24,451 bases of DNA from a virus. The translations under genes and the position numbers were made by a program. The stretch spans positions 1 to 24,451 of the IMG/VR virus record IMGVR_UViG_3300010885_001139; one strand, 5' to 3'. How positions within the stretch are numbered: position 1 is the first letter of the stretch; each line of letters begins with the position of its first letter. The notes beneath the pieces were generated by a model. The model searched no databases and was not told the DNA's origin. It saw only the letters and a program-made list of their open reading frames with translations. This document shows positions 16,858 to 24,008 of the stretch, one piece after another.

Positions 16858-17529
16858 TCACATTATTAATGGTTTATATGGGCGCAAAAGTGCTTCAACA
16901 CCAAATGGAATCTGCTTCAATTTGGTTTCTGTTGTATCACTACGATTGTTGTACAAATGAGTCAACAAAAGCAATCCAGCTTGTTTAATTACAGGATAAG
17001 CGGAAATCGGATTGGCTACGGTTGAATATTCAATGACTAGCGGGGCTGTCATCACAGTGTTGATGTCAGTAGGCAAGCTGCTCACAATTACTTTATTGCC
17101 AGAAGCATCATAGTAATAATTCGGGCTTGTTACGATAACAAACGCTGGAGGAAATGAATCATTCCAATAGCCAACAGAATTTACAGTCACTCCAGATTGT
17201 GCTGGATTGGTGTTTTGACTAACTTCTGGCAAATCAAGACTGATAGGTGACGCAGCAAGGCTCTCAGAACCGTACCAGACGCGATAAGTCACAGGAAAGA
17301 TAGATAGACCAAGGAAATCCTCAATAGCTTGTCTAGTGGCTATTCCAAGGCTTGTGATGTACGCATCCTGACTTGTATCATCAAACAAGTTCAGTTGATT
17401 GGTCATTTCATCAAGTGTCAACCATGCCGTAGTGTTATCACGGCCAATCTGTTCAAACTTTGTGTAGTTGAATGGATTGCGTGTCTGCGCCCCGAAAGGC
17501 GCAGCGTATTGATAGTTGTCAAAACTCAT
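16858..17529 (-). CDS. Head-tail connector (HK97 gp6-like)
   Basis: The ATG at 17529 lies three bases after the second capsid gene stop. The 223-residue product has 'AWLTLDEMTNQLNLFDDTSQ' then DAYITSLGIATRQAIEDFLG (about 55-74), a YRVWYGS segment, beta strands including VTVNSVGYWND, and a C-terminal helix 'YPVIKQAGLLLLTHLYNNRS' ending GVEALLRPYKPL. The 'hLTLDExxxxL...D...I..L...A...IE.fLG' start and 'P..hkqAhLLLh.HLYnNR' end are those of gp6-type connectors of HK97-like phages. It forms a ring under the portal. Confidence 0.9.
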   Translation of the reverse strand: MSFDNYQYAAPFGAQTRNPFNYTKFEQIGRDNTTAWLTLDEMTNQLNLFDDTSQDAYITSLGIATRQAIEDFLGLSIFPVTYRVWYGSESLAASPISLDLPEVSQNTNPAQSGVTVNSVGYWNDSFPPAFVIVTSPNYYYDASGNKVIVSSLPTDINTVMTAPLVIEYSTVANPISAYPVIKQAGLLLLTHLYNNRSDTTETKLKQIPFGVEALLRPYKPLIM

Positions 17530-17532
17530 GGT

Positions 17533-18561
17533 TTAGATACCAACAAGTCGGATGCCAGCGAACGGGTCGCGCACGGTACTTACCAAACGTTTTTCAGCAT
17601 ACAGCACCGTAAAACCGGGGTTTGTTTGTTCCATTGCTTGAATTGACATTTCTTCAACATCAGCAATAGTTACAAAACGGGGCCAGTTTGCCAAATAAAT
17701 ATTGAACTTGCCAGCACCAGTGGTTTGCATATTGGAATTTGGAATCACGGGGAAACCAAAAATATTGACCACAGCGCCACCGTCACCATCACCAACTTCA
17801 GGGAATTGTTTAATCAATGCCGCACCGCCAAGGCTTCGCAATTCATGTATTGTTTGTGGGTGCATCATCCATGCAGTGCCGGGAAGATTCCAATATTGCG
17901 ATGGGAACAAACGAGCCATATCAACAATGTCAGCATAGGTTACTGCTGCCGCTGCTTGACTAAATGTTGCAATCGAATGGATACCGTTGGTGATTGCTGT
18001 GCCGCTTGACCCATAAGCCGATGCGCTTGCAGTGGTATACATATTCAAGCCACGCAAGCCGCTTGTTCCGCCAGTGGTAGTTGTTGTAGAGCCACTTTGG
18101 TCATTGTTTAACACCATTGAAGCGCCTTCAATAGCTGCAAATTCCAGCATCAAATCTTCAACAAGTGTTTCATTTAAATAATTTACATCCGACATTACCG
18201 CCGAACGAATTGGCAATTGAGCAGCCACCACACGGGTAGGCAATTGCCAAATTGATGTATCTGTATTTGGAGTACCGCTGTTGGGGGTAAATGTATAACC
18301 CCAAGGGTTTGTTTGATTTGCCGCATTACCTGTCTTTGCTACAAACTGAACGCTTGAGCCAGCAGCAGGGATAACACGCGACATTTCACGAATTGGGTTT
18401 GCATATCGCAAAGCAGCAAACGCATTATCAAAGAAAGTACGACCGCCAACCCCGTCACCAGAGCCTGTAATTCCAGACGCTTCGCGCAAGTCAATCGTGA
18501 CTTTGTCGCCCGTCTCAAGTGTTTGTTTAATGCTTGTCAGGATTCGTTCGGTGATTTTCAT
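17533..18561 (-). CDS. Second HK97-fold major capsid protein paralogue (342 aa, no delta domain)
   Basis: The gene follows the terminator by 19 bases with AAGGACG upstream of ATG 18561. It aligns to the first capsid protein starting about residue 26 here and 105 there: EAS-x-x-T-x-x-GD-G-x-GGRT, FAALR-x-ANP, GSS-x-QF, KTGNA. That block is by eye about 60% identical. Later anchors are TSIWQLP, LPIRSAVMSD, LEFAAIEGASM, NNDQ, SGLRGL, 'SIATF', SQYWN and EKRLVSTVRDP. The approximately 100-residue N-terminal delta-like coiled coil of paralogue 1 is absent, leaving only about 25 residues. It may co-assemble with paralogue 1 or be a minor or decoration-like capsid subunit. Confidence 0.88.
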   Translation of the reverse strand: MKITERILTSIKQTLETGDKVTIDLREASGITGSGDGVGGRTFFDNAFAALRYANPIREMSRVIPAAGSSVQFVAKTGNAANQTNPWGYTFTPNSGTPNTDTSIWQLPTRVVAAQLPIRSAVMSDVNYLNETLVEDLMLEFAAIEGASMVLNNDQSGSTTTTTGGTSGLRGLNMYTTASASAYGSSGTAITNGIHSIATFSQAAAAVTYADIVDMARLFPSQYWNLPGTAWMMHPQTIHELRSLGGAALIKQFPEVGDGDGGAVVNIFGFPVIPNSNMQTTGAGKFNIYLANWPRFVTIADVEEMSIQAMEQTNPGFTVLYAEKRLVSTVRDPFAGIRLVGI

Positions 18562-18579
18562 GGTTCGTCCTTATGATGG

Positions 18580-18606
18580 AAAAAGGCAGGGGACGAATCC
18601 CCCGCC
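18580..18606 (-). terminator. Rho-independent terminator between the two capsid genes
   Basis: On the minus strand GGCGGGGGA pairs with TCCCCTGCC (9 bp, one G-U) around a TTCG tetraloop, and five T residues follow (18584-18580). It begins just after the stop of capsid gene 1 (tandem TGA TAA) and ends 18 bases before the start of capsid gene 2. A strong hairpin plus U run is the textbook intrinsic form. Because the downstream genes have no visible new promoter, it must be leaky or there must be a promoter I cannot see. Confidence 0.85.
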
Positions 18607-18621
18607 ATCTTTACCTGATTA

Positions 18622-19965
18622 TCAGGTCGCAGTGCCAGTGGAGCGATAGCGCACCAAAGCATTAGGGTCACGAACCGAGGTTGCCAAACGCTTTTCCCCG
18701 AAAAATGTAATATATCCGGGTTGTGTTTGGTCGTAGCGGCGCATAACCATGTTCAGACGATCAATGATGGTGTGACCGCGAGTGAAGTCACCAAAGTACA
18801 TCGGGAACAGGCTAGAAGTACCAGCCGAGCCAGTTGTCGCTTGCGATGGGTTGTCCAGATACTTGTTCACGACAACATCAAAGCCCAACAAACGACCAAC
18901 AATACCGTCAGTTTCCAAAGGCGACATACGCTCAAACACTGGAGTGCCGTTGCTATCAGTCAAACCACGAATCTGAGCCAACAGAATCGGGTTAATCATG
19001 AACTTAGCACTGGCAGTCCAATATTGCTGAGGCAATTGATAGATGAAGTTCACAACGTCTTTGTAAGTGATGTTTGCAGCACCAACAGTGTTCACGTTAG
19101 AAGTCAACTGGTCATAAGTTGCCAAGCTATGCAGACCGCTAGTAGAGCCAGTACCAGAAGTACCAAATGCAGCCACGGAACAAGTACCGCCAGCATAGGT
19201 TGCATTAGCGCCAGCGTATTGGTCAAGACCGCGCAGACCAGCAGTGCCACCGTATGTATTAGGCGAATCAGTCTGATCGTTGTTTTGAATCATTGATTGG
19301 GCTTCAACTTGAGCGAATTCCATCAACATATCGTCAACCACGTTAGCTTCCAAGCCATCAATATCGTCCAAAGCAGCGGTACGGATTGGAAACTGAGTGT
19401 TCAAGTCTTGCAAAACGAGTTGCCAGATGCTTGTGTTTTCAGTTGTAGGCGAACCGTTGTTCTGGATTGGGTAACCCCAAGTAGCACCAGCGTTACCCGT
19501 TTTTACGCGAAACTGGTAGCTAGAACCATCAGTAGCAACAGTGCGAGACAGACCACGCATGGGGTTAGCCAAACGCAGAGCAGCAAACACAGGGTCATAA
19601 GCGGTACGACCGCCTTTACCGTCACCACCAGCAGTCAGAGCCGAGGCTTCTTTCATGTACGCTTCGGCTTGCGATTCGTCAGCAAAGATTTTCAGCTCAG
19701 TCTCAACACGGCCACCATTTTTGTGGAAAGTAGCGAGTTGTTCTTTAACAGAACGGTTCACATCTTTACGCACAGACGAGGTAGGAGCCTTGATAAACTC
19801 AGGCATTTGAATAGAAGCAACTTTGGCTTCCAGAGCAGAAACCATCTCTTGCATTTCAGCTTTAACAGCTTCAATAGCAGCAGGGATTTTGGCTTCAACG
19901 GCAGACACTGCATCGGCTTGTTTAGCTTCGATGGCATCCAATTTGTCGAGAATAACTTGGGACAT
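18622..19965 (-). CDS. Major capsid protein 1 (HK97 fold) with N-terminal delta-like domain
   Basis: This 447-residue protein has a start at ATG 19965 with AAAAGG upstream. Residues 1 to about 100 form an Ala/Glu/Lys-rich helical section (AIEAKQADAVSAVEAK, AIEAVKAEMQEMVSALEAK) of the HK97 delta-domain kind. It normally acts as an internal scaffold and is removed by the protease encoded upstream. The core then runs EASALTAGGDGKGGRTA, FAALRLANPMRGL, SSYQFRVKTGNAG, 'SIWQL', LNTQFPIRTAAL, DMLMEFAQVEAQSMIQNNDQ, GTAGLRGLDQY, YWTASAKFMINP, GFDVVVNKYL and EKRLATSVRDPNALVRYR. These are HK97-type capsid features. The gene ends with TGA TAA and a strong terminator follows. Confidence 0.95.
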   Translation of the reverse strand: MSQVILDKLDAIEAKQADAVSAVEAKIPAAIEAVKAEMQEMVSALEAKVASIQMPEFIKAPTSSVRKDVNRSVKEQLATFHKNGGRVETELKIFADESQAEAYMKEASALTAGGDGKGGRTAYDPVFAALRLANPMRGLSRTVATDGSSYQFRVKTGNAGATWGYPIQNNGSPTTENTSIWQLVLQDLNTQFPIRTAALDDIDGLEANVVDDMLMEFAQVEAQSMIQNNDQTDSPNTYGGTAGLRGLDQYAGANATYAGGTCSVAAFGTSGTGSTSGLHSLATYDQLTSNVNTVGAANITYKDVVNFIYQLPQQYWTASAKFMINPILLAQIRGLTDSNGTPVFERMSPLETDGIVGRLLGFDVVVNKYLDNPSQATTGSAGTSSLFPMYFGDFTRGHTIIDRLNMVMRRYDQTQPGYITFFGEKRLATSVRDPNALVRYRSTGTAT

Positions 19966-19968
19966 GAT

Positions 19969-20769
19969 TTAACCTTTTAGGCGTTGGTCAAGGAGTTTAA
20001 GAAGTTCACGTTGCTCAAGAGCAGCAATGATCTTCGCTTCGGTTGCCTCCGCATCAGAATCGCTCTGACTTGGCGCACTTTCAATCGGCTCTTTTACAGC
20101 ATCACGCTGTTCAATTACCGACTTGAACACAGATGCGGCGGCAACCGACATCTGCTTGGACAGACCTGCATCCCGCAAGGCTTCTTCCAATACTTTTAAA
20201 TCAGCAGAACCATCTGGACGGAAATATTCCAGTTTCTTGACTTCTGCTGCGGGGTTGTTTGGGTACATAACAATGCTGGTTTCCCGTAGGCCACCTTTGG
20301 TAATCTGAAAATAACCTTCATCTGCCAAATCAGCCGAACCCATAGTAAATGGAGTTCCGTCTTCTTTGACCCATTGATATTCTTCAGCAAATGCGCCAAC
20401 AGAAACTCCACCAAACATGGTTGGAGATTCGCACATTACTTGATAAAGGTCTGAGCCTTGAGTTGTATTGAGATACAAGCGTCCAGTACCACTCATGCCA
20501 GTTTCATCCATTTCAAACTGAGTCCATTCACCAACAGGAACGGCATCAGAATTATGGTTTACATACATTGGCAATGGTCGGCCTAAATCAGCGAATTCTC
20601 CAGCCCAATCCATAAATCCTTCTGGTGTATAGAAAAATTTACGTCCATCAGCGCCTTCACGAGCGCCCCAAGTTGTAAAACGGGCTTCAATCTTGCCAGT
20701 TGGCTCTCCGCTGGCAGTCTTCTCTGTCAGGTTGAGTTTGGCTTCGCATACTAGATGGATTTGTTTCAT
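19969..20769 (-). CDS. Prohead maturation protease (S78/HK97-type)
   Basis: This 266-residue protein has ATG 20769 with AGGGG seven bases upstream. The protease fold is visible: IEARFTTWG, then 'LPMYVNHNSDAVPVGEWTQF' with catalytic-type H72, 'DETGMSGTGRLYL', 'FGGVSVGAFAEE' with S123, and GLRETSIVMYPNNPAAEV with E163. H-x(51)-S and the downstream R-E-x-S-h-V-x-x-P-x-N-P-x-A are the S78 family landmarks. The C-terminal about 50 residues are helical, acidic and charged, and may act as a scaffold-like extension. It would cleave the delta domain of the neighbouring capsid protein. It ends three bases before the capsid ATG. Confidence 0.93.
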   Translation of the reverse strand: MKQIHLVCEAKLNLTEKTASGEPTGKIEARFTTWGAREGADGRKFFYTPEGFMDWAGEFADLGRPLPMYVNHNSDAVPVGEWTQFEMDETGMSGTGRLYLNTTQGSDLYQVMCESPTMFGGVSVGAFAEEYQWVKEDGTPFTMGSADLADEGYFQITKGGLRETSIVMYPNNPAAEVKKLEYFRPDGSADLKVLEEALRDAGLSKQMSVAAASVFKSVIEQRDAVKEPIESAPSQSDSDAEATEAKIIAALEQRELLKLLDQRLKG

Positions 20770-20906: not shown

Positions 20907-22304
20907 TCAGGTTTTCCCGATATTCATTTTGCGCTTCTGGCTACCACCACCGCCACCAGTATCTTGAGGCGATACTCCAGTTGCTGTATCTGCTGATTTA
21001 GCATCTTTAACCAATTCATCCCCCCCTTCAATATTGGCACGGCCAAGATATTCACGGGCTTCATTTGGAGTCAAAATGCCATTAGATACGCCTTGAACAG
21101 CAAAGTTCATTTGGTCTAAAGGCGCACCTTTTAGGAAATCCTTGGTATCAAACTCAATTTTCAGCGATGGATAACCCTGTAAAAGATGCTGCTGCAATTT
21201 CTCTTGGATATTAACCAACATCGGATACATGGAAGTTTTGTAAAACTCATCAACAACAGTTTGAGTATTGTTGTATTTTTGGTCGTGGATGCCAATCATG
21301 CTTGGCGGCACACCAAACAAACCACAAATACGCTTCATGGTTTGCTCTTTTAAAGCGGCAGCATCGGCATCTTGCAGCGTCAGCATGGTCAAAGGCGTGT
21401 ACTTCATACCTTGGTCAAGCAACATTGATTGCCCGGGCTTAGAAGGGTCTGCCTGACGGGAGCCAGTCATGTTATTCCATGTTTCTTTCAGTCGAGCAGC
21501 AATTTCCTTGAATTTGCCATCAGGAATAACCGCATCAGTTGTAAACATACCAGAAGGCTTTGCGCCATTCTGCATAACGTAGTTAGCATACAAATCAATG
21601 TCTTGGTCAAGCGCCACCAACTCAGTTGCCAAAATTCCTTTGTTAAAACCAGCAGAACCTTGCCATGCGGCCTCTTTAACGTGCATGATCTGATGAGCTT
21701 TAAGTGGCTCATCACGCGAAAAACCGTAGCTTGGCGTAGATAAACGATAAGACGGGTATCGAGTCGGTGTAATGCTTACAGCAATCAATGTGCTATCCAT
21801 GATGTACATCTCAAGCGGAGTTTCCATTGCACTTGCTTGGTCTTTTCTCCACCAAAGGGTAAAAGCCTCACCAGAAAGTTCTAGCCACATAATCCATTGA
21901 TACCAAAACTCATATTTGCTTTGGAAGTTGTTTGGGCTTGCCAATAACTTAGCAACTTGTTTGGCTTTGGCTTTATCTCGCGCACCAACATCAGAATTTG
22001 TGATGGCATTTGAATATTTGCCGTCATCCATTTCACACATTACATTGATTTGAAGTTGAGCCAAAGCACGGGCCTTAATACCAATACAAGACATGATTGT
22101 GCTGTTTCGAGTCAGTACAGACATATCGACAGGACGACCAGCATTGGTCGTACTAGCGGTCGTGACGTACAGAATCTGAGTATTTACATTAGGGGTTTTA
22201 TTATTGCCTTGGAAGACAATATTGTTACCCAAAGCCGTTTGGCCAAATAATGTGTTGCTTTCAGATAAGCCTTTTTTACCCTTGAAAATATCAAACATTC
22301 CCAT
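20907..22304 (-). CDS. Portal protein (HK97-type)
   Basis: This 465-residue protein starts at ATG 22304 with TAGGAG seven bases upstream. It begins MGMFDIFKGKK (an ATG two codons later is possible). Typical portal landmarks follow: VDMSVLTRNSTIMSCIGIKA (start of the core), 'LLASPNNFQSKYEFWYQWIM' then LELSGEAFTLWWR, MYIMDSTLIAV, 'HQIMHVKEAAW', ALDQDIDLYANYVMQNGAKP, 'ICGLFGVPPSMIGIHD', NNTQTVVDEFYKTSMYPML and NGILTPNEAREYLGRANIEG with GDELV. It forms the dodecameric DNA channel at one vertex and binds terminase. The C-terminal tail is Gly-rich and basic. Confidence 0.95.
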   Translation of the reverse strand: MGMFDIFKGKKGLSESNTLFGQTALGNNIVFQGNNKTPNVNTQILYVTTASTTNAGRPVDMSVLTRNSTIMSCIGIKARALAQLQINVMCEMDDGKYSNAITNSDVGARDKAKAKQVAKLLASPNNFQSKYEFWYQWIMWLELSGEAFTLWWRKDQASAMETPLEMYIMDSTLIAVSITPTRYPSYRLSTPSYGFSRDEPLKAHQIMHVKEAAWQGSAGFNKGILATELVALDQDIDLYANYVMQNGAKPSGMFTTDAVIPDGKFKEIAARLKETWNNMTGSRQADPSKPGQSMLLDQGMKYTPLTMLTLQDADAAALKEQTMKRICGLFGVPPSMIGIHDQKYNNTQTVVDEFYKTSMYPMLVNIQEKLQQHLLQGYPSLKIEFDTKDFLKGAPLDQMNFAVQGVSNGILTPNEAREYLGRANIEGGDELVKDAKSADTATGVSPQDTGGGGGSQKRKMNIGKT

Positions 22305-22328: not shown

Positions 22329-24008
22329 TTACCACTCTAATGACCTAAAGCCAAATGATTCGCCAACAAAAGCGTTATCTAAATGACAATGCAAAGCCAT
22401 AATCATCGAAATAATCCCGTCTACTTTGGCAGATGGGTCGGCCTCGTTCTTTCTCAGTTTCACATTGGCGTTTACATCAACATATATTTCAATGTTAGAG
22501 ATTTGCCACCCAAGGAACGGGTTGCCATCATGCTTAATTGCCTTCTTCAGTATCAGTTGTTCCGCTGTCTTGGACGGGTTCGATAAGACTGCCATACCTT
22601 GACCCACCTTTTTAACAGGAAGCCCGTAGCCGTAAAGGTTAGCCACCAAACTGGCAGCGTTATACGGGTCAAAGCCGATTTCTTTAACATCGTGTTCCTT
22701 ACATTGGTTTTGTATATACGACTCAATCTCAACCATATCCGTTACGTTACCCTGAGTCAACTTCAATATTCCTGTTGAAATTGCTTGCTGATAAATTGGC
22801 AAATAATGGTTAGGAATGAAGTCCATTGATTCTTCAGGAAGGAAAAACTGGAACTTGGAGTAGAAGTCTTCTTCACTGTACCGATGCAAAGTACAAACGG
22901 CGTTCAAATCTCGACTATGAGCCAAGTCAAAAGCCATAAATGTTGCTTCTGGCTTATCGGCAGACATTGGCGCAGCCGATTCATCCCAAAACCGCCTGTC
23001 AATCCAAGCTGAGTTGGCAGATACATAAATGTTTAATTGCTTGCACAAAAACTCATTCAAGCTGGCAGGTTTAGCCGAGGCTTCTTCTGCCATATGCTGA
23101 ATGTGAGCCTTGGTAACTGAGATACCTAACATGGGATTTGCTTTACCCCATACATCAGGGTTTGACCATTCATCACCCGGGTCAATGCCATAAAGCAACC
23201 CAAACCATCTAAAGTTGTCTGTGGCAGCGCCACGCAATATGGAGCGTAAATGAGTCAAATCTTCATAGAACTTTGTGTCTTTAGTGAAACTGGCCGTGGT
23301 CAGGTACATCCTTAATGGGTTCTTACGAGCGCCCATGCCAGAGTGCAAGACCTCAATAGAACCACGTTCTGTAATCTGAGCCGCTTCGTCAATCATGGCA
23401 ACAGATGGGTTCTTACCGTCACCTGTCTTTCGGTTTTCCCTAGACAAAGCACGATAAGTAGAAGTCGAGTCTCCAGCTTTCTTCAGTTCATTGCGATACA
23501 CAATAAACTTTGACTGAAACTCTATTTTCATTGATTCAATGATTGCTTTGGATGAATCAAAGCAAATAGTGGCCTGTTCCCGGTTGGTCGCCAGCGTAAA
23601 CACCTCAGCGCCAGCATCACCAAATTGCAGTTCGTATAGCGACACAATAGAGGCAAGAGTTGTCTTGCCCGATTTGCGAGGCACAAACAAAATTACGTCC
23701 GTCACCCATCGGGTCGTAACATCACCTTTGGCTCGAAACGCATAAACCCCGGCTAACCAAAGAATCTGAAATGGTTGTAATTCAATTTGTTTTCCAGCAT
23801 CCGGGCCTTTGACATGCTTACAGAACTTTACGAACCGTAGGACATGCTCAATCTTTTCGGCAATGAATTCATAAGGCGCATCCCTACGCTCCACCATGTC
23901 AAGGAATCTCTGGCAAGCCAGCTTTACATCCTCACACGCCTGAATATCACCCCTAGTTACACCTGCTGCATACTGAAAGGCAGACTCAAGCTGTGGCGAA
24001 TAATTCAT
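22329..24008 (-). CDS. Terminase large subunit (Terminase_1 family)
   Basis: This 559-residue protein overlaps the small-subunit stop by 23 bases. The ATPase has a Walker A 'VPRKSGKTT' (109-117), Walker B VAMIDEAAQ (203-211, D207/E208), and the coupling segment 'RMYLTTASFTKDTKFYEDLT'. The C-terminal RNase-H-like nuclease has FMAFDLAHSRDLNAV (D361), EIGFDPYNAASL (D447) and KVDGIISMIMALH (D530), the three acidic residues expected. The SxxRxxKxGDGKNPS-type loop before Walker B ('RENRKTGDGKNPSVAMID') is also typical. It translocates DNA into the prohead through the portal and cuts at packaging ends. The start is not clearly marked by a ribosome site, so the first residues are less certain. Confidence 0.96.
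   Translation of the reverse strand: MNYSPQLESAFQYAAGVTRGDIQACEDVKLACQRFLDMVERRDAPYEFIAEKIEHVLRFVKFCKHVKGPDAGKQIELQPFQILWLAGVYAFRAKGDVTTRWVTDVILFVPRKSGKTTLASIVSLYELQFGDAGAEVFTLATNREQATICFDSSKAIIESMKIEFQSKFIVYRNELKKAGDSTSTYRALSRENRKTGDGKNPSVAMIDEAAQITERGSIEVLHSGMGARKNPLRMYLTTASFTKDTKFYEDLTHLRSILRGAATDNFRWFGLLYGIDPGDEWSNPDVWGKANPMLGISVTKAHIQHMAEEASAKPASLNEFLCKQLNIYVSANSAWIDRRFWDESAAPMSADKPEATFMAFDLAHSRDLNAVCTLHRYSEEDFYSKFQFFLPEESMDFIPNHYLPIYQQAISTGILKLTQGNVTDMVEIESYIQNQCKEHDVKEIGFDPYNAASLVANLYGYGLPVKKVGQGMAVLSNPSKTAEQLILKKAIKHDGNPFLGWQISNIEIYVDVNANVKLRKNEADPSAKVDGIISMIMALHCHLDNAFVGESFGFRSLEW

Follow-up and report, generated by a model that had tools for sequence, protein, structure and literature searches.

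Two adjacent HK97-fold capsid paralogues in a widespread group of small freshwater phages, the second a candidate low-copy vertex subunit

Results

Organization of the capsid locus

The window, by which we mean the whole stretch of the virus record analysed here (24,451 bases), carries two intact capsid open reading frames on the minus strand, designated MCP1 and MCP2. Genes on this strand follow the order small ORF, terminase large subunit, portal, prohead protease, MCP1, MCP2, head-tail adaptor and tail genes. The features considered below are as follows:

22329..24008, minus strand: terminase large subunit
20907..22304, minus strand: portal protein
19969..20769, minus strand: prohead protease (Peptidase_S78), the sole one seen in the window
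18622..19965, minus strand: MCP1, HK97-fold major capsid protein with an N-terminal helical delta domain, 447 aa (ORF, profiles, structure model)
19651..19965, minus strand: MCP1 delta domain, approximately residues 1-105 (secondary structure; start of the MCP2 alignment at about 104-105)
19609..19650, minus strand: MCP1 N-arm motif EASALTAGGDGKGG, residues 106-119, candidate maturation cleavage region
18585..18606, minus strand: terminator-like hairpin of 9 bp, 7 of them G-C, with a loop of 4, then T5 (18584-18580)
18568..18572, minus strand: AAGGA ribosome-binding-like site upstream of MCP2 (read from the sequence)
17533..18561, minus strand: MCP2, HK97-fold capsid paralogue without a delta domain, 342 aa (ORF, profiles, structure model)
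18511..18555, minus strand: MCP2 short N-terminal helix, residues 3-17
18442..18483, minus strand: MCP2 N-arm motif EASGITGSGDGVGG, residues 27-40, the same motif as in MCP1
16858..17529, minus strand: head-tail adaptor, directly 3' of MCP2 with no hairpin between

Further along the same strand, two adjacent tail-tube-like genes (16046-15552 and 15542-15024) are 77% identical, the second matching the phrog_158 major tail protein. A GNAT acetyltransferase-like gene lies inside the tail module (9587-9141, minus strand; PF00583, phrog_1249), and a tail fibre-like protein (3921-1510, minus strand) ends in a C-terminal intramolecular chaperone domain (Peptidase_S74).

MCP1 and MCP2 are paralogues that differ at the N-terminus

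The original prediction had described the pair as adjacent HK97-fold capsid paralogues, one of them with a delta domain, and this description was confirmed. BLASTP aligned MCP1 with MCP2 at 39% identity over 345 columns (E = 5e-69), and profile-profile comparison of the two families gave a probability of 100% (E = 7.5e-87). Both proteins scored above the curated cut-offs of PF05065 (109.3 bits for MCP1 and 77.1 bits for MCP2; cut-off 24.2) and TIGR01554 (120.1 and 71.1; cut-off 27.5). Pfam-A hmmscan at E <= 0.001 returned PF05065 alone, with no match of either protein to the T4-type capsid family. Structure models of middling confidence (pLDDT 57.6 for MCP1 and 63.7 for MCP2) had the HK97 fold, with the RcGTA capsid (PDB 6tb9) as the best match for both (VIA-align Z of 13.2 for MCP1 and 21.6 for MCP2) and HK97 as the next. 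The alignment starts at about residue 105 of MCP1 and 26 of MCP2, as had been noted, and the estimate of about 60% identity over the first 55 core residues was borne out by measurement (33/55 between MCP1 105-159 and MCP2 26-80). The alignment likewise places the C-terminal EKRL-x-S/T-x-VRDP motif in both proteins.

A further claim, that MCP2 lacks a helical start of some 100 residues, stood in part. The delta domain is indeed absent: the MCP1 model has long predicted N-terminal helices (residues 2-51 and 65-82) where MCP2 has a 15-residue helix, and only MCP1 combines a delta domain with an adjacent protease gene, that for Peptidase_S78 directly upstream. The shortfall, however, is about 79 residues, with 104 residues preceding the aligned core in MCP1 and 25 in MCP2, and the MCP2 N-terminus retains a conserved short helix and the N-arm.

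The pair is inherited together

The closest annotated relative of the window is Methylophilaceae phage P19250A (KX815270), to which a large uncultured group that includes the window is related; this group consists of widespread small freshwater bacteriophages with two related shell-protein genes side by side. P19250A has the same gene order, both capsid genes and a hairpin between them, and its annotation gives the MCP1 relative as a capsid protein of a gene transfer agent but the MCP2 relative as a hypothetical protein. Literature searches gave no description of the MCP1/MCP2 pair. Unlike the capsid pair, the tail-tube duplication is not universal: one copy was found in P19250A and in many loci, against two in the window.

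Loci were collected from five viral-contig scans and one genome scan, which yielded several hundred. ORFs were classified with models of each family, and redundancy was reduced by counting distinct sequences. Both genes were intact in 289 fetched loci, representing 231 distinct sequence pairs, and in all 289 they stood in tandem in the order MCP1-MCP2; the remaining fetched loci end inside or beside the capsid pair. Relatives with only one of the two genes were sought as a check on the original prediction. Among the loci fetched, none with room for the partner lacked it, and the five viral-contig scans and the genome scan gave no close relative with a single capsid gene. With the 80 best loci kept, these scans reach more distant relatives to a limited extent, and single-capsid phages may exist among those. 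When 369 genomes of the class to which the genome of locus L216 belongs were searched, that genome and one weak match were the only results. Two BFVD proteins, A0A6J5SIT1 and A0A6J5N0Q7, are 37-43% identical to MCP2.

Three loci carry an insert of 540-640 bases between MCP1 and MCP2. That of L131 (5704-6246) was identified by phrog_314 as a homing endonuclease, Pfam giving no name, and the proteins at the same place in L084 (5929-6528) and L074 (5462-6004) are similar to it by eye; the insert occupies the place of segD between T4 genes 23 and 24. In one sublineage (L312, 5931-7256; L296, 5936-7261) MCP2 is extended at its N-terminus by a domain of some 100 residues, matching phrog_2859 (function unassigned), which stands where MCP1 has its delta domain.

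Origin and selection

A FastTree phylogeny with six single-capsid outgroups resolved an MCP1 clade (local support 0.90) and an MCP2 clade (0.997), joined to each other with support of 0.977. Because the two form separate clades, a single duplication that preceded the diversification of the sampled group, and that all loci seen have kept, fits best. A recent tandem duplication is excluded by these clades and by the level of identity between the two proteins. MCP2 was also checked for premature stops and relaxed selection, and neither was found: the gene is intact in all pairs and its median pairwise dN/dS is 0.098 (0.117 for MCP1), values of about 0.1 that indicate strong purifying selection on both genes and rule out a pseudogene.

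MCP2 diverges faster than MCP1, with a mean pairwise identity of 0.67 against 0.74 and a root-to-tip distance of 0.68 against 0.39. In several pairs MCP1 is 93-97% identical and MCP2 just 64-71%, which suggests that MCP2 has been swapped by recombination, as a module. Since MCP2 alleles about 65% identical appear to swap while MCP1 remains above 93%, a tight pairwise fit between the two proteins would not be needed. The window compared with L084, and L115 with L038, show MCP1 identities of 94-97% and MCP2 identities of 66-67%.

A conserved hairpin and codon bias separate the two genes

Between MCP1 and MCP2 the window reads GGCGGGGGATTCGTCCCCTGCC and then TTTTT. By a fixed rule (at least 7 pairs, at least 5 of them G-C, and a T-rich tail), a strong terminator-like hairpin was detected at 160 of 172 MCP1-MCP2 boundaries and at none of 601 TerL-portal, portal-protease, protease-MCP1 and MCP2-adaptor boundaries. 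A larger set gave 168 strong hairpins among 188 distinct sequences (186 by relaxed criteria) and none after MCP2 (0/200). In P19250A this hairpin is the sole such element found in the first 27.4 kb of the plus strand. Shuffled intergenic sequences formed one in 0.2 of 98 cases; the shuffles and the other boundaries together exclude a chance hairpin. Five of six consensus stem pairs have changes on both sides that preserve pairing. The presence of the hairpin across the group is new here.

The hairpin appears to mark where the high-dose capsid gene ends and to leave MCP2 on the low-dose side, the position that gene 24 has in T4: it precedes MCP2 and none follows, and MCP2 is therefore grouped with the low-copy genes. 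HK97 and Bcep176 also have a hairpin 3' of their single capsid gene, and T7 has a terminator there, so we take the element as an indication of dose grouping and not of a vertex role. In some members the T-run is weak, and the hairpin may therefore also act in mRNA 3'-end stability.

Mean ENC was 41.4 for MCP1, 44.6 for MCP2, 47.7 for portal and 48.0 for adaptor, and the value was lower in MCP1 than in MCP2, meaning stronger bias, in 122 of 133 loci. The bias of MCP2 is still fairly strong, exceeding that of portal or adaptor. Taken together, hairpin and codon bias point to a lower dose of MCP2 than of MCP1.

Conservation differs between core segments

Segments of the core, with domain boundaries taken from predicted secondary structure, were compared within and between the two classes. 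The N-arm motif E-A-S-x-L/I-T-G-x-G gave a between-class/within-class conservation ratio of 0.91 and the A-domain, at the capsomer centre, a ratio of 0.47, the lowest of the core segments; the N-arm and many P-domain residues are common to MCP1 and MCP2. Contacts between neighbouring capsomers of HK97-type shells involve the N-arms and P-domains, and those within a capsomer the A-domains. The pattern for this reason suits two homomeric kinds of capsomer that still fit together. Unlike HK97, whose record shows a single capsid gene, MCP1 and MCP2 do not conserve the cross-link residues K169 and N356, the aligned columns being mostly A/P/S/T and G in an E-loop alignment that is uncertain; E363 of HK97 is kept in the aligned column.

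Discussion

Three roles had been suggested for a second capsid protein: part of a mixed shell, a pentamer-specific subunit and a size switch. A pentamer-specific or otherwise low-copy subunit fits best, because both the conserved hairpin and the weaker codon bias point to a lower dose of MCP2; a mixed shell in its equimolar form fits poorly. As would be expected of a dedicated vertex protein, MCP2 is an adjacent, divergent paralogue that is co-inherited with MCP1 at every locus with both genes. Judged from sequence, MCP2 is very probably a low-copy shell protein of some kind, and it is probably the pentamer (vertex) protein. We also lean, if only somewhat, towards the fuller proposal that a two-protein HK97 shell evolved independently in this abundant group, with the delta-less paralogue forming all pentamers and its dose set by an attenuator hairpin.

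On the pentamer reading, the hairpin would terminate most transcripts after MCP1, with less MCP2 made as a result. The MCP1 delta domain would serve as a built-in scaffold driving procapsid assembly, and MCP2 would co-assemble with MCP1 through the shared N-arm and P-domain contacts, while its diverged A-domain would favour another type of capsomer, the pentamer. MCP2 would then form the pentamers of all vertices except that of the portal, and MCP1 the hexamers, giving 360 MCP1 to 55 MCP2 copies if the shell is T=7 like that of HK97, an assumption drawn from genome length (38.7 kb for P19250A, 39.7 kb for HK97). The single prohead protease would trim both proteins near the shared EAS-A/G-L/I-T motif, so that MCP1 loses about 105 residues and MCP2 about 27.

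The main rival to the pentamer reading is random co-assembly, in which MCP2, as a minor component, is built into MCP1 capsomers either randomly or at particular positions such as those near the portal, to give shells of variable composition. Such behaviour is documented for the two-component Family 2B encapsulin of Streptomyces lydicus, whose two HK97-fold shell proteins tile randomly (PMC12407261). There too, two HK97-fold shell genes lie in one operon and their products co-assemble; unlike a DNA-filled head, the assembly is a bacterial compartment with irregular tiling. The N-arm and P-domain residues common to MCP1 and MCP2 would permit mixing, as would the exchangeability of MCP2 alleles. 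Yet mixing should preserve the A-domain contacts within capsomers, and no core segment has diverged more than the A-domain; random mixing also predicts universal retention in 289 loci less well than a required position does. We consider it a possible but unlikely account.

Alternatively, MCP2 might determine size or shape, fixing curvature such that without it the MCP1 shell would be different or open. The SaPIbov5 protein Ccm acts in this way by taking over pentamers (PMC8569155), and such a function could coexist with a pentamer role. Against this, MCP2 is no accessory but is present in every relative with room for it, and the longer contigs are mostly of like length, about 35-41 kb. As a separate explanation it is improbable. 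We give still less credence to MCP2 being a tail, neck or internal protein outside the icosahedral shell: it does adjoin the head-tail adaptor on the low-dose side of the hairpin, but it has a complete HK97 fold, the N-arm, the E-loop region and conserved residues shared with MCP1, and it scores above the PF05065 and TIGR01554 cut-offs. That MCP2 is the main shell protein and MCP1 mainly scaffold is hardly credible: MCP2 does resemble a mature capsid protein that lacks the delta domain, but the hairpin and the codon bias suggest that MCP1 is the abundant one of the two, and MCP1 retains a full, well conserved shell core.

As a pentamer protein, MCP2 would be analogous to T4 gp24 and SaPIbov5 Ccm, and separately evolved. 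T4 gp24 forms the vertices and loses 10 N-terminal residues, compared with 65 for gp23 (PMC9958956). The paralogues are adjacent in T4 as they are here, and the major capsid gene is followed directly by a hairpin terminator in T4 and by a terminator-like hairpin here, ahead of the second gene; the T4 record has the order gene 23, hairpin, segD, gene 24; the second protein has a much shorter N-terminal propeptide, and a homing endonuclease gene can lie between (segD in T4; L074, L084 and L131 here). In contrast, T4 is a myophage of large size whose scaffold proteins are separate, whereas in these small HK97-type phages the scaffold is part of MCP1; identity is about 20% between gp23 and gp24, against 39% for MCP1 and MCP2; and the vertex location is established for gp24 and proposed for MCP2. 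Ccm, a homologue of the phi12 capsid protein with a shorter delta domain, co-assembles with it, forms pentamers only and makes no shells alone (PMC8569155). It differs in being encoded by a phage parasite and in keeping a delta domain of 87 residues, whereas MCP2 has none and is encoded by the phage itself.

If this assignment is correct, the T4-type division of labour would have arisen a second time, in phages whose capsid protein has the scaffold fused to it. Such an unrelated case in a small phage would show that specialization into hexamer and pentamer proteins is repeatedly reachable, and the pair would permit tests of how a shell is built when one of its two subunits carries the scaffold. 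The pentamer reading would also assign a function to a protein family that annotations now list as hypothetical.
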